A program made the position numbers and the translations under genes. A stretch of 64,000 nucleotides of DNA, taken from the IMG/VR virus record IMGVR_UViG_3300023174_000045, positions 1 to 64,000 of that record. One strand, 5' to 3'. Origin of the DNA: a virus. Positions 15,746 through 43,122 of this stretch are shown one piece after another; position 1 is the first letter of the stretch, and each line of letters starts with the position of its first letter. The notes under the pieces are model-generated. The model was not told the DNA's origin, made no database searches, and was given only the letters and a program-made list of their open reading frames with translations.

Positions 15746-15751
15746 TAAATA
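15744..15751 (+). promoter_or_regulatory. Late-promoter-like box AGTAAATA
   Basis: AGTAAATA, five bases before the iscA ATG; the same variant occurs before iscU and before the gene at 60025. Confidence 0.35.
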
Positions 15752-38127: not shown

Positions 38128-38135
38128 TATTTATT
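38128..38135 (-). promoter_or_regulatory. Late promoter box AATAAATA
   Basis: Minus-strand AATAAATA, 20 bases before the ATG of the secreted 96-aa protein, overlapping the 3' end of agt. Confidence 0.55.
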
Positions 38136-39132
38136 ACACAACAGGTACCAGATTGTCTCTAAAAATTTCCCATGCTGTTTGCCATGACCAGCGTTGACTG
38201 CCGTCCCACACACGATGTCTGGGCAAGAACAAGCAATCGGTGACAGCTTGTTTCAAGTAAGGATTCATGCATCCTGTGATGCCTTCGTCTATGACATCCA
38301 GTGGTCCTGTAGCAGGATAAGCAGCCACTGGAGTTCCGCAGGCCATGGCTTCAATCATCACAATGCCAAATGTTTCCCACTGACTGGGAAACACAAATAC
38401 ATCTGCTAGGTTGTAGTAGTAGGCTAGATCAGCACCAGTTTTGAATCCCACATACTCTACGTCTGGATAACGTGATTGCAATTCTGCACGATACGGTCCA
38501 TCGCCTACCAAAATCTTGCGTGAGTTGGGATAGCTCATGCCGCAGAAATCATCCAAGTTCTTTTCTTTGCTGACTCTGCTGACACACACCAAGACAGTCT
38601 TATCATTGGGCAAGCGTTCTCTGGGATAAAATATTTCACGGTCTACACCGCGAGTCCATGGCACAATGTCGCCGTCAAATCCATGCTCACGTAACTCTTG
38701 CACCATAGTTTCGGTTGTAGTCAACACCTTACCGCTATGCTTATGAAACCAACGCACTAGAGGCCAAGTAATGGCTTCAGGTATGCCAAACAGTTTTCTA
38801 AGTCCTTCTGGAAATTTAGTATGATAAGCAGTGTTGTAGCGATAATGATGTTTGTCAAGATATTGTCTAACACGCAGACCAACAGGACCTTCTGTGGCGA
38901 TGTGGATATGATCCGGACGGATCTCCTCAAGTATCGCGCCCACATTCCGGGGAATGGCAATCTTGACTTGGTGGTAGCCAGGGCAATCAAAGTAGCGGAA
39001 CCGCCCGGGATCAAGATATACAACACGATAGTTGTCCAGAATCGCATGCGCCTCAATATTTTTATAGGTTGTAACCACGCCATTGATTTGATCCGGTAAG
39101 TTGTCTGTAACGATCAAGATTGTTTTTGACAT
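38134..39132 (-). CDS. Glycosyltransferase family 4, Agt-like (glycolipid synthesis)
   Basis: A 332-residue retaining glycosyltransferase with a GT-B fold. The donor site has CVSRVSKEKNLDDF and PSQWETFGIVMIEAMACGTPVAA, the E(x7)E region. The N-terminus (TDNLPDQINGVVTTYKNI) and HTKFPEGLRKLF match bacterial glycolipid-forming GT4 enzymes. In phosphate-limited bacteria such a gene (agt) pairs with plcP: PlcP releases diacylglycerol from phospholipids and Agt adds a sugar to it. Here it follows plcP by 33 bases on the same strand. The sugar donor cannot be read from sequence. Confidence 0.75.
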   Translation of the reverse strand: MSKTILIVTDNLPDQINGVVTTYKNIEAHAILDNYRVVYLDPGRFRYFDCPGYHQVKIAIPRNVGAILEEIRPDHIHIATEGPVGLRVRQYLDKHHYRYNTAYHTKFPEGLRKLFGIPEAITWPLVRWFHKHSGKVLTTTETMVQELREHGFDGDIVPWTRGVDREIFYPRERLPNDKTVLVCVSRVSKEKNLDDFCGMSYPNSRKILVGDGPYRAELQSRYPDVEYVGFKTGADLAYYYNLADVFVFPSQWETFGIVMIEAMACGTPVAAYPATGPLDVIDEGITGCMNPYLKQAVTDCLFLPRHRVWDGSQRWSWQTAWEIFRDNLVPVV

Positions 39133-39165: not shown

Positions 39166-40038
39166 TCATATTTCATAGTCGCCAGCACCTGCTCGCAACT
39201 GATTTGATTTGGGAAAACTAATTCTATTCTTCCGGGTTGATCTTGCGGGTTCGTTGTGTGTACTGCTATCAATATCATCAACCACATTGTCGCTCTCCTG
39301 TGTCCAAGTTACAATTTCCCATGTGCCATCATGCCGCTCTACCAAGGCTGTGCATGACTCTACCCAGTCACCGTCATTCATGTACACAATGCCATCTATA
39401 TCTTTGATTTCTGCGTGATGTATGTGTCCACAGATCACACCGTCAAATCCACGTTTCTTGCAGTATTGAGCAAGATTGTGTTCAAAGTGAAATATAAAGT
39501 CTACTGCTTTTTTGACCCGATGTTTAAGGAACAGGCTAAGGCTAAAGTACCCAAAACCGAAACGATGACGAATCCAATTGATCCGAGTATTGAGGCCAAG
39601 AATGAAATCATATGCTTTGTCTCCTAACATTGCCAACCACGGCGCCAGTCTAGTAATACCGTCAAATAAATCTCCATGCACTACTAGATAGTGTCGGCCG
39701 TCTGCACCTATATGCTCTGTTTGATTTACCAATTCAATTATGCCAAACCCAATGCCATAGTGCATGAAAGGTCTTAAAAACTCGTCATGATTACCAGCCA
39801 CATATACAACCCTAGTACCACGCTTGCTATGGCCCAGAACGCGGCGGATGACATTGGTGTGACTTTGTTTCCATCGCCACTTGTTTTGTTTGATTTTCCA
39901 GGCATCTATTATGTCTCCTACAAGATATAGTGTTTCGCAGGTGTTGTGTTTGAGAAAGTTGTTGAGTTTGTCAGCCTGGCAGTCTTTGGTGCCAAGATGA
40001 ACATCGCTGATAAAAATACTGCGATAAGTTTTTTGCAT
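39166..40038 (-). CDS. PlcP-like metallophosphoesterase (phospholipase C for lipid remodelling)
   Basis: A 290-residue calcineurin-type enzyme. Metal ligands are D12 and H14 (ISDVHLG), D42 (VGDIIDAW), N83-H84-D85 (AGNHDE), H121 (VVHGDLFDG) and H204/H206 (CGHIHHAE). This family is often labelled UDP-2,3-diacylglucosamine hydrolase (LpxH-like), but the length, the GDIIDAW motif, the adjacent Agt-type gene and the Pho box point to PlcP, which hydrolyses phosphatidylglycerol or -ethanolamine to diacylglycerol. The start directly follows a TTAAAT -10, so the mRNA may be leaderless. LpxH cannot be fully excluded. Confidence 0.75.
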   Translation of the reverse strand: MQKTYRSIFISDVHLGTKDCQADKLNNFLKHNTCETLYLVGDIIDAWKIKQNKWRWKQSHTNVIRRVLGHSKRGTRVVYVAGNHDEFLRPFMHYGIGFGIIELVNQTEHIGADGRHYLVVHGDLFDGITRLAPWLAMLGDKAYDFILGLNTRINWIRHRFGFGYFSLSLFLKHRVKKAVDFIFHFEHNLAQYCKKRGFDGVICGHIHHAEIKDIDGIVYMNDGDWVESCTALVERHDGTWEIVTWTQESDNVVDDIDSSTHNEPARSTRKNRISFPKSNQLRAGAGDYEI

Positions 40039-40043
40039 GTATT

Positions 40044-40077
40044 ATTTAAATCTATATGTGTTACAGTAACATTACAA
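40044..40077 (-). promoter_or_regulatory. PhoB-type promoter of plcP (Pho box plus -10)
   Basis: On the minus strand TTGTAAT-GTTA-CTGTAAC (40060-40077) is a Pho box of two 7-bp repeats 4 bases apart. Exactly 10 bases later is TTAAAT (40044-40049), followed by AATAC and the ATG. Same geometry as pstS. Confidence 0.75.
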
Positions 40078-40092
40078 ACTGCCATCACATAA

Positions 40093-40764
40093 ATGTGTAA
40101 TATGTTGGCACATAAATACCCAGTGAAACCCACCATAGCCCTGTTCATATACGATCCCAAATGCTCAGTCCAATGCGGAAATGGCATGATACAGGCATTG
40201 AGTCCCTACTACAACTTCAAACTGTTCTCAAAGAATCGTGTGGAGAATGTGTTCTTTGATGATGTGGACATGGTTGCTGTGCCCGGGGGCATAGGTGACG
40301 CAGATGTCTTTAAACAACTGTTCAAAAATAATGGCGACCGTGTGCGTAAATTTATTGCTGACGGGGGCAGGTACCTGGGCATTTGCATGGGTGCGTACTG
40401 GGCAGGAAGCCACTATCTCAATGTATTACAAGATGTAGATGCTGTGCAATACTTGAAACGTCCAGGTGCAGACACACGCAGACCGCATGCCAAAAACATG
40501 TCTATTACCTGGCGCGGCCGACCTGATCACATGTTCTGGTATGATGGATGTGCTCTAGTAGGAGACAACACCAAGTTTGAAACTGTGTCAACTTATGTCA
40601 ACGGTGATGCCATGGCCATCATACAAAACAGAATTGGTTTGATAGGATGTCATCCTGAAGCAGATAAATTTTGGTATGATGGCTATTCCTGGATGCGCCG
40701 ACATTGGACCGGTAATCGTCATGCAGAACTGGTAGAGTTTACCGACCAAATCATGCGGTCATAA
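40093..40764 (+). CDS. Class I glutamine-amidotransferase-like protein (BPL_N type)
   Basis: A 223-residue protein of the GATase-1 fold. GGRYLGICMGAYWAG carries the nucleophile elbow Cys and GCHPEAD a following His-Pro-Glu, as in the BPL_N (biotin-protein-ligase N-terminal) group, whose function is uncertain. It is divergent from plcP and shares its upstream region, including the Pho box. The exact start is unclear: ATG 40093, ATG 40102 or GTG 40123 (MKPTIALF-type opening) are possible; a late-like CATAAATA (40111-40118) falls between them. Confidence 0.7.
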   Translation: MCNMLAHKYPVKPTIALFIYDPKCSVQCGNGMIQALSPYYNFKLFSKNRVENVFFDDVDMVAVPGGIGDADVFKQLFKNNGDRVRKFIADGGRYLGICMGAYWAGSHYLNVLQDVDAVQYLKRPGADTRRPHAKNMSITWRGRPDHMFWYDGCALVGDNTKFETVSTYVNGDAMAIIQNRIGLIGCHPEADKFWYDGYSWMRRHWTGNRHAELVEFTDQIMRS

Positions 40765-40787
40765 AAAAAAGGCCCTTCTGGGCCTTT
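40760..40787 (-). terminator. Terminator of the porin gene
   Basis: Read on the minus strand: AAAGGCCC-AGAA-GGGCCTTT followed by TTTTT. It stops porin transcription and may also stop the convergent gene at 40093. Confidence 0.88.
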
Positions 40788-40839
40788 AGTACTGGTTACG
40801 AGTTCCAGTGCCGCTCTATCGTTGCGGTCGATTTTTCTA

Positions 40840-41976
40840 TTAGAAGCGATGTTGGATACCAACTGCCACAGCATTCTGCTTGTATTTGCTGTCGCTGAAA
40901 GTTGATGTGTCCTGGCTGGGAACCCAACGATCATACACAGTAAACGGAGCAGTAGCACCTGATGCACGAGTTGCAACCACATAGTCGGCAAACACTTGTG
41001 TGCGCTTGCTGAAATCATAAGTCACGCCAACAGCAGTCATTTTGACATTGTTAATGCCAGCAGTGACTTTGTCTTTGACCATGTAGTAACCGCCATTTAC
41101 GCCAAGATTGGCATTGACTTTGTACTTGGCGCCAACAAATGTTGTTTCAGCATCAGTCTTGCCATCGGCCTTGGTTGAGCTGGCATAGTAGTTGGTTTGT
41201 GCTGTGGGATTGTCAGTCTTAGCATAGCCTGCATTTACAGTTAATGCAGGCGTAACATCATATTTCACAGCATACAAATCAATCTTTTCACTGATAACTG
41301 AACTGCTCAAACGCACTTCTTCGTGTGTGTATGCCAAGTCCAACGGGCCTGCGGTGTAACGAACACCTACGTTGGTACCAGATTTATAAGCAGTGTCATC
41401 GGGCTGGTTGCCAAATGCTTTGGCGTAGTCAAACTTGAAACCGCTGTAGTCTTTGCTGGACCAGCGAACCATGTTGTCAAAGCGGCTCACACCTGAACCT
41501 GAGTAGAAACCAGCATAACGAGCAATGGGTTTCATACCACCAAAGTTCCAGTTGCCACGGCTATCAAATTCATCTAGCACGTTGTACAAAAAGTTTTTGC
41601 CACGACCCAATTTGACTTCACCAAAGCTGCCGCTGAGGCCCACATTGGCTTCGCGGTCAAACAACACAGTACCATTGGTGCCTGTGCCTGCTGAGTCTTT
41701 GCCAGCAGCGCCAGTGCGCAAACTCATGTTGCCTTCCAATTGGAAATTGGCTTTCAAACCATCACCAAGGTCTTCTGAACCTTTGATACCAAAGCGATTG
41801 CTGTTGTGAGCTTGGTCTGCAACACCAGTGAAATCACTGTTACTGCTGGTAAAGCCACTGCCACTGACAATGCCAGCGCCAACCACACCATACACTTGTG
41901 TGTTGTTTTGTGCTTGAGCAGTGCCAGCAACGCCGACAGCAACCAATGCCGCAATTAAAATATTCTTAAATTTCAT
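40840..41976 (-). CDS. Outer-membrane porin, betaproteobacterial type
   Basis: A trimeric 16-strand-type porin (378 residues) with a 23-residue signal peptide ending GTAQA-Q. The first mature strand (NNTQVYGVVGAG), the FGIKGSEDLGDGLKANFQLE and the FDREANVGLSGSFGEVKLGR segments match Gram-negative porins of Burkholderiales, and it ends in a terminal Phe (GIQHRF), the outer-membrane assembly signal. AAGGAGA precedes the start. It lies downstream of pstS and has its own promoter. Finding a full-length host porin in a phage is unusual. Confidence 0.93.
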   Translation of the reverse strand: MKFKNILIAALVAVGVAGTAQAQNNTQVYGVVGAGIVSGSGFTSSNSDFTGVADQAHNSNRFGIKGSEDLGDGLKANFQLEGNMSLRTGAAGKDSAGTGTNGTVLFDREANVGLSGSFGEVKLGRGKNFLYNVLDEFDSRGNWNFGGMKPIARYAGFYSGSGVSRFDNMVRWSSKDYSGFKFDYAKAFGNQPDDTAYKSGTNVGVRYTAGPLDLAYTHEEVRLSSSVISEKIDLYAVKYDVTPALTVNAGYAKTDNPTAQTNYYASSTKADGKTDAETTFVGAKYKVNANLGVNGGYYMVKDKVTAGINNVKMTAVGVTYDFSKRTQVFADYVVATRASGATAPFTVYDRWVPSQDTSTFSDSKYKQNAVAVGIQHRF

Positions 41977-42006
41977 AGTTTCTCCTTTGTAAATTACTAT
42001 GGGTTT

Positions 42007-42035
42007 ATTATATAGTATTTCTACTAACAATACAA
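42007..42035 (-). promoter_or_regulatory. Sigma70 promoter of the porin gene
   Basis: Minus strand TTGTAT, 17 bases, TATAAT, placed between the pstS stop and the porin ATG. No Pho box is visible here. Confidence 0.7.
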
Positions 42036-43052
42036 CTATTTCTTGACCTGTGTCCAAACTTCGCTACGAATGCGATCCGTAACAGCTTTTGGCAATGGCA
42101 CATAGTCAAGATCTGCAGCCATTTTACCACCGTTTACAAAACTCCAGTCAAAGAATTTGATGACTTCTTGACCAGTCTTTGCATTTTTGGGTTCACGATA
42201 CATCAGCACAAACACAGCACCTGTGATGGGCCATGATTGCGCACCCTTTTGATTTACCAAACTGATGCCCATGCCCGGAACACTGAACCAATCAGCACCG
42301 GCAGCCGCTGCCGCAAATGTCAGATCATCGGGCTCGACCCATTTGCCGTCGCGATTTTGCAAACGTGCATAGCTGATTTTGTTTTTCTTGGCATAAGCAT
42401 ATTCTACGTAGCCAATGGAATTTTTGATACGTGTTACATTGGCAGCAACACCTTCATTGCCTTTGCCGCCCACACTGCTGGTGGCAGGCCATTTCACAGC
42501 GGCGCCTTTGCCAACTTCGTCTTTCCACAGTGGGCTGACTTCAGTCAAGTAGTCTGTGAAAATAAATGTTGTACCTGACCCATCCGCACGATGCACCACT
42601 GTGATGGGTTCGGCAGGCAATTTAACCTTGGGGTTCAAGTCTTGGATACGCTTGTCGTTCCACGTCACAATGTGTCCCACAAAGATCTTGGCCAGTACTT
42701 CACCGGTCAACTGCAACTCGCCAGGTTTGATGCCTTCTACATTGATGATTGGCACCACGCCGCCCAGCACAGCAGGAAACTGGATCAAGCCAGCGGCTGT
42801 TAATTCATCACCTTTCATGGGTGCATCACTGGCACCAAAATCCACTGTACCTGCTTTGATTTGCTTGATGCCGCCGGAACTACCAATGCTTTGATAGTTT
42901 AGTTGCACATCAGATTTTTCTCTGTAAGCTTCTGACCATTTAGAGAACATGGGAAAGGCAAATGTTGAACCTGCCCCTGTGATTGTTTCTGCATTTGCTT
43001 GTGGACTCATCAAGTACAATGATGCCGCAATTATTACCAAGATTTTTTTCAT
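42036..43052 (-). CDS. pstS: Phosphate-binding protein PstS
   Basis: Periplasmic component of the high-affinity phosphate ABC transporter. It is 338 residues with a signal peptide (MKKILVIIAASLYLMSPQANA). The phosphate-binding loops are GAGSTFAFP, SIGSSGGI, DFGASDAP and ADGSGTT. Phages of cyanobacteria and SAR11 carry pstS too, where it boosts phosphate uptake of the infected cell. It would need the host PstCAB. AAAGGA precedes the ATG, and a PhoB-type promoter is upstream. Confidence 0.96.
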   Translation of the reverse strand: MKKILVIIAASLYLMSPQANAETITGAGSTFAFPMFSKWSEAYREKSDVQLNYQSIGSSGGIKQIKAGTVDFGASDAPMKGDELTAAGLIQFPAVLGGVVPIINVEGIKPGELQLTGEVLAKIFVGHIVTWNDKRIQDLNPKVKLPAEPITVVHRADGSGTTFIFTDYLTEVSPLWKDEVGKGAAVKWPATSSVGGKGNEGVAANVTRIKNSIGYVEYAYAKKNKISYARLQNRDGKWVEPDDLTFAAAAAGADWFSVPGMGISLVNQKGAQSWPITGAVFVLMYREPKNAKTGQEVIKFFDWSFVNGGKMAADLDYVPLPKAVTDRIRSEVWTQVKK

Positions 43053-43088
43053 GTGTTTGTTCCTTTGTGAATGTGCGATGCACAAATT

Positions 43089-43122
43089 ATTTAAACACAA
43101 AGATGTTACAGTAGTATTACAG
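43089..43122 (-). promoter_or_regulatory. PhoB-type promoter of pstS (Pho box plus -10)
   Basis: On the minus strand CTGTAAT-ACTA-CTGTAAC (43105-43122) is a clear Pho box; 10 bases later is TTAAAT (43089-43094). The box overlaps the last codons of the small gene upstream (43117-43269). Confidence 0.82.

Follow-up and report, generated by a model that had tools for sequence, protein, structure and literature searches.

The window analyzed here covers the first 64 kb of IMGVR_UViG_3300023174_000045, a virus record of 225,080 nt (hereafter G000). It carries two phosphate-related genes on the minus strand, each preceded by a sequence that resembles a binding site for the regulator PhoB (a Pho box). 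One of them, pstS (42036–43052), encodes a periplasmic phosphate-binding protein according to curated equivalog models; PstS structures are the top Protein Data Bank (PDB) matches of its product, and a Shine-Dalgarno-like AAAGGA lies ahead of its ATG. The other (39166–40038) encodes a calcineurin-type phosphoesterase that resembles PlcP and is here called plcP. The name rests on a family-level match together with gene context, there being no PlcP-specific model; the usual metal-site motifs (SDVHLG, GDIID, GNHD, HGD and GHIHH) are retained by eye. From the sequence of the two sites and its conservation in related phages, we conclude that they are probably hybrid promoters, in which a box for host PhoB takes the -35 position of a phage late-type promoter.

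Sequence and rarity of the two sites

On the minus strand, the plcP site reads TTGTAAT-GTTA-CTGTAAC-acatatagat-TTAAAT (40077–40044) and the pstS site reads CTGTAAT-ACTA-CTGTAAC-atctttgtgt-TTAAAT (43122–43089), which confirms to the base the letters and spacing described in an earlier note on this DNA. Two TGTMAY repeats with an 11-bp period form the box at each site (TTGTAATGTTACTGTAAC, 40077–40060, for plcP; CTGTAATACTACTGTAAC, 43122–43105, for pstS), and the box lies at the -35 position, about 10 bp ahead of the -10. The earlier note had taken TTAAAT as the -10 element. An element is present at both sites, but its register was off by one: the conserved downstream core is TAAATA (40048–40043 and 43093–43088), and the base preceding it is free. 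Written as NTAAATA (here TTAAATA), this late-type -10 occupies 43088–43094 at pstS and 40043–40049 at plcP, in both cases 10 bp past the box and in the latter 4 nt before the ATG. In promoter numbering, the box spans about -40 to -23 and TAAATA about -11 to -6. Neither promoter has a sigma70-type -10; TAAATA stands where the host has a TAGACT-like sequence, and because of this replacement we class the sites as hybrids rather than as plain Pho promoters.

Both sites are exceptional within the genome. The pattern YTGTAAY-N4-CTGTAAY matches only these two positions in the whole of G000 (0.02 expected under a first-order Markov model), and the box followed by N11 and TAAATA is seen twice against an expectation of 7e-5, on which basis we rejected a chance origin. 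A position weight matrix (PWM) trained on the boxes of relatives, with G000 left out, ranks the two sites first in a scan of G000 (26.1 and 24.7 bits), far ahead of the third-best site (13.9 bits); many equal boxes elsewhere in the genome, which would have spoken against the earlier reading, are not found in G000. When up to three mismatches are permitted, the window contains 19 box matches compared with 13 by chance, which is not above chance level, so the signal is confined to the two exact sites.

Conservation of the layout in related phages

The same geometry recurs in dozens of related phages, which extends the earlier note's claim that one layout ahead of two phosphate genes exceeds chance. 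In a set of 130 viral loci retrieved through PstS, PlcP or porin, we found 46 strict boxes, of which 32 lie exactly 10 bp before NTAAATA, 11 at 20 bp and 1 at 21 bp, with 2 lacking the element. To remove the bias of selecting by gene, we also scanned IMG/VR for the pattern box-N{4,32}-TAAATA. Among the 80 distinct matches listed, 43 have N=11, 12 have N=21 and 5 have N=22, compared with about 0.8 match for each other spacing; the labelled genes behind N=11 sites include plcP (18), pstS (13) and a gene for a Na/Pi cotransporter. A scan with the TGTCAY form of the box peaks at N=11 as well (19 of the 75 matches listed, with pstS behind 10 and plcP behind 5), and one locus in it has three 11-bp units. 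Exchange of TGTCAY for TGTAAY, with spacing and genes unchanged, supports reading the repeats as Pho boxes, as first proposed. In a control scan that paired the TGTAAY box with TATAAT, the matches listed showed no comparable spacing peak and no clustering at phosphate genes.

Among the loci selected by gene, the hybrid with the longer spacing precedes a gene for a PhoX alkaline phosphatase (PF05787, 1.6e-122). The porin gene of one locus (L141) has its own box-10-TAAATA promoter. Between close relatives, both TGTAA units, TAAATA and a few other bases are invariant, while flanks and spacer diverge. Because the preferred distances of 10 and 20–21 bp differ by one helical turn, the arrangement suggests that the bound protein and polymerase make contact along the same side of the helix.

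Three uncharacterized families also occur repeatedly behind the hybrid promoter (L267:2615–3556, L258:2241–3236 and L239:1218–1655). They comprise a family marked by "MRLEDLA" and a membrane protein bearing the motif VIANDSVQTLGTW, both without a Pfam match, and a family weakly similar to the malonyl-CoA decarboxylase C-terminal domain. All three are candidates for new phosphate-starvation functions.

TAAATA as the late promoter element

Within 60 nt upstream of genes in G000, TAAATA occurs 36 times in the sense and 2 times in the antisense orientation, and the corresponding ratios in relatives are 36:3 (G010), 60:6 (G012) and 33:1 (G003). The genes behind it in G000 encode an endolysin, tail fibres, a tail-spike-like protein, virion proteins and a Clp-type protease, among others. 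Late promoters of the T4 type consist of a TATA box one helical turn ahead of the start, have no -35 element and use gp55 as sigma (PMC2988020). Phage Aeh1 has a different -13/-12 pair, which leaves TAAATA alone as the shared part (PMC2988020). Ordinary TAAATA promoters in the phages studied here likewise have almost no upstream information (mean 0.01–0.07 bits per base) and no -35 motif; the pstS and plcP promoters break this rule by having a Pho box. The phosphate genes resemble late genes to which control by PhoB has been added. One part of the earlier note is not supported: it had placed the two genes under a control separate from the phage program, yet their -10 is the late element of the phage, where host pstS promoters have a TAGACT-like sequence.

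A second class of promoter in G000, TTGAC-N-TATAAT, is found mainly ahead of small genes and resembles an early class read by host sigma70. Cassettes of this early type, nearly identical to one another (TTGACC-...-GCTATAATATGGACATATTGTAACAAA), lie ahead of small genes at scattered positions (28096 and 57254 in the window; 70283, 70843, 71368 and 178687 in G000). The distance from TAAATA to the start codon is bimodal, on which G000, G010, G012 and G003 all agree. In G000, 19 sites lie 3–8 nt before the start codon, one of them with a Shine-Dalgarno sequence, and 31 lie at 12–50 nt, 24 of them with one. Examples of the short-distance group are found at 15746, 32546, 40043, 64463, 77981 and 112394. 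The short-distance late mRNAs, that of plcP included, are probably leaderless, and pstS belongs to the long-distance class.

A gp55-family protein of ~280–320 amino acids is encoded by four relatives (G003, G008, G012 and G013), all of which carry the hybrid promoter. T4 gp55 is the sole PDB match of the gp55-like profile (4e-8); an AlphaFold model of the protein had a mean predicted local distance difference test (pLDDT) score of 51 and was not used. A PHROG search of G000 left the T4 gp45 and gp23 families unmatched.

Host PhoB as the likely ligand

Nearest relatives of the phage PstS include Burkholderiales proteins with up to 67% identity, a relationship that points to a host lineage within the freshwater Burkholderiales (Limnohabitans, Comamonadaceae). 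For comparison we assembled 28 distinct host pstS promoters, mostly from Burkholderiales. These share with the phage sites tandem TGTMAY repeats of 11-bp period in the -35 place, usually 10 bp ahead of the -10. They differ in that element, which is TAGACT-like in the host and TAAATA in the phage. Since TAAATA is found in none of the 28, the phage box is placed as in host promoters, but the -10 is of the phage type. A PhoB/OmpR-type DNA-binding domain (PF00486) is absent from 11 phage records, G000 included, and a phage-encoded PhoB was rejected for this reason; host PhoB is therefore the likely ligand of the boxes.

Several observations weigh against the hybrid reading. The boxes of this phage's clade are of the form TGTAAY, whereas most host boxes are TGTCAY, and a PWM trained on host boxes leaves both sites outside its top ten. 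The low rank arises because host boxes favor TGTCA, and the mismatch is softened by the interchange of the two forms in other phages. E. coli PhoB normally touches region 4 of sigma70. Since gp55 lacks a sigma region 4 (PMC2988020), the contact through which PhoB would activate is left unexplained. In addition, searches with PHROG 234/12791 and a local profile did not detect gp55 in G000, nor was it found in the close relative G010, which has a terminase, so we infer rather than observe the link to gp55 for this phage. A recognizable large terminase is missing from G000 too; for this reason G000 is probably a fragment, and we read the absence of gp55 as incompleteness. Finally, P-values are overstated, since contigs that are related do not count as independent and the scans list only part of the matches.

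Alternative explanations

If the sites were instead plain host-type Pho promoters, PhoB would recruit a sigma70 polymerase tolerant of the weak -10 TTAAAT, and the genes would be expressed early, outside the phage program. The box does lie where host Pho boxes are, T precedes TAAATA in 24 of 31 hybrids, which makes TTAAAT equal to TATAAT at 4 of 6 bases, and a cyanophage pstS is controlled by PhoBR (PMC10976474). Against this, TAAATA comes 10 or 20 bp after almost every strict phage box and never occurs in the host promoters, it marks the late genes of these phages, and the listed matches for the box-TATAAT control gave neither a comparable peak nor phosphate-gene clustering. Moreover, the base that matters most to sigma70 is the A at -11, which TTAAAT lacks. 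We consider this explanation unlikely.

The repeats could also bind a factor other than PhoB, such as an unrecognized phage activator or a different host regulator, and merely resemble Pho boxes, as the use of TGTAAY rather than the commoner host TGTCAY in this clade might indicate. The hallmarks of PhoB sites argue otherwise (direct TGTMAY repeats at 11 bp, phosphate-specific genes, interchange with TGTCAY and the three-unit tandem in one locus), as does the lack of PhoB/OmpR-type domains in the phage records, and we regard such a factor as quite improbable. Least credible is that the boxes arrived with captured host genes and are functionless in the phage. The kinship of PstS with its Burkholderiales counterparts fits a capture, but a relic would not be expected to have a -10 of the phage type, to keep TGTAA, TGTAA and TAAATA invariant while flanks and spacer diverge, or to appear as one design ahead of unrelated phosphate genes in diverse phages.

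Neighboring genes

Between pstS and plcP lies a gene for a Gram-negative porin (40840–41976, minus strand). A TATAAT is found upstream of it (42012–42007), and the gene may use its own promoter or be transcribed by read-through from pstS. Porins of this host-type outer-membrane kind show ~68–74% identity across 9 related viral loci and lie 160–220 nt past pstS where both are seen. A phage-carried porin is unusual and might have a role in phosphate entry. Downstream of plcP is a GT4 glycosyltransferase gene (38134–39132, minus strand), the proposed lipid glycosyltransferase partner of the phosphoesterase; 59 of the 115 viral loci with room downstream have a glycosyltransferase after the phosphoesterase. 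This pair fits the lipid-remodelling pathway of the PlcP phospholipase in phosphate starvation (PMC9457565). Relatives of PlcP are found in only 5 records of the phage collection.

A gene on the opposite strand (40093–40764) has its start 16 nt past the Pho box of plcP. It weakly matches the N-terminal domain of biotin-protein ligase (glutamine-amidotransferase-like), and 60 of 248 viral loci contain similar sequence. A phoH-like gene elsewhere in G000 (97359–98093, minus strand) has TAAATA 31 nt upstream and no Pho box, so PhoB wiring does not extend to all "Pho" genes of the phage. The nearest DNA polymerases to that of G000 belong to Sinorhizobium phage Phosso, Agrobacterium phage Atu_ph07 and other jumbo phages, and a megablast search with the region returned no match among isolated phages.

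Proposed mechanism

Under the hybrid-promoter model, a gp55-like phage sigma would bring host RNA polymerase to TAAATA late in infection. Ordinary late promoters offer no -35 contact; at pstS and plcP, phosphorylated host PhoB would supply one, on a fixed helical face. On a polymerase without region 4, candidate contacts for PhoB would be the beta flap, the alpha C-terminal domain or a gp33 analogue. Strong transcription of the two genes would then require both that the late program is running and that the cell is starved for phosphate. PstS, and perhaps the porin, would increase phosphate uptake while the phage multiplies, and PlcP, with the glycosyltransferase making a replacement lipid, would free phosphate from membrane phospholipids. 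We are evenly divided on the broader proposal that host PhoB directly activates gp55-type polymerase as the missing -35 contact, and that a viral phosphate regulon (pstS, plcP, phoX and the Na/Pi transporter) thereby forms an AND gate in widespread uncultured phages.

Relation to known systems

The hybrid sites share with T4-type late promoters, served by gp55, gp33 and gp45 (PMC2988020), a TAAATA core, ordinary copies that lack a -35, late genes behind them and, in the relatives of G000, an encoded gp55-family sigma. They differ in that T4 has no sequence-specific upstream activator site, whereas here a subset of promoters has one, the Pho box at -40 to -23. This raises a question of mechanism, namely how PhoB would cooperate with a polymerase that lacks sigma region 4. 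As in the lipid remodelling of phosphate-starved bacteria (PMC9457565), a PlcP-type gene appears, from its promoter, to respond to phosphate starvation, here with a glycosyltransferase next to it; the difference is that these genes are phage encoded. A literature search, mostly outside subscription journals, turned up no paper that treats plcP as a viral auxiliary gene and no account of a Pho-box/late-promoter hybrid with fixed spacing. The presence of plcP points to phage-driven recycling of membrane lipids in aquatic bacteria.

Two observations in other phages touch on this layout. In the cultured Pelagibacter phage Mosig EXVC030M (L327, 2335–2500), divergent pstS and plcP share an intergenic region that contains TAAATA elements and direct repeats of TTAAC. 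The 10-bp spacing is not kept between them, and the region is possibly a SAR11-type version of the hybrid idea. At the gene S-PM2d130, a predicted cyanophage Pho box (PMC10976474, Table 2) ends in CTTAAATA, which is similar to a late -10. PhoB did not bind there and the gene was not phosphate responsive (PMC10976474), and searches for cyanobacterial Pho boxes may pick up late promoters.

Phosphate-acquisition genes are widely reported in phages (PMC10987575), and their control by host PhoBR is known from the cyanophages P-SSM2 (Zeng & Chisholm 2012, as described in PMC10976474 and PMC5931967) and S-PM2d, in which PhoB-binding sites were demonstrated by electrophoretic mobility shift assay (PMC10976474). 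In phosphate-starved hosts, lysis is delayed for phages that lack PstS but not for cyanophages that carry it (PMC10976474), which suggests why such genes pay. G000 resembles these phages in having phosphate genes, pstS among them, and no PhoB domain of its own, an arrangement in which host PhoB controls phage genes and no phage PhoB is required. It differs in host and in Pho-box consensus, in a gene set that includes plcP and phoX, and in a box tied at fixed distance to a late -10; by eye, the box-10-TAAATA layout was not seen at the pstS promoters of cyanophages S-SM1, S-SM2 and P-SSM7. Host PhoB control of phage phosphate genes is thus known, and within the literature searched the combination of a PhoB site with a late promoter appears to be new. 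As a DNA signature, TGTMAY-N4-YTGTMAY-N11-TAAATA can find phosphate-responsive viral genes in metagenomes without knowledge of the genes themselves. The cyanophage work established that phages use host PhoB, but did not show how this is wired into a lytic program with its own late promoters; the hybrid promoter offers a concrete and testable form of such wiring, in which the late -10 is retained and a host activator site is added at one helical phase.

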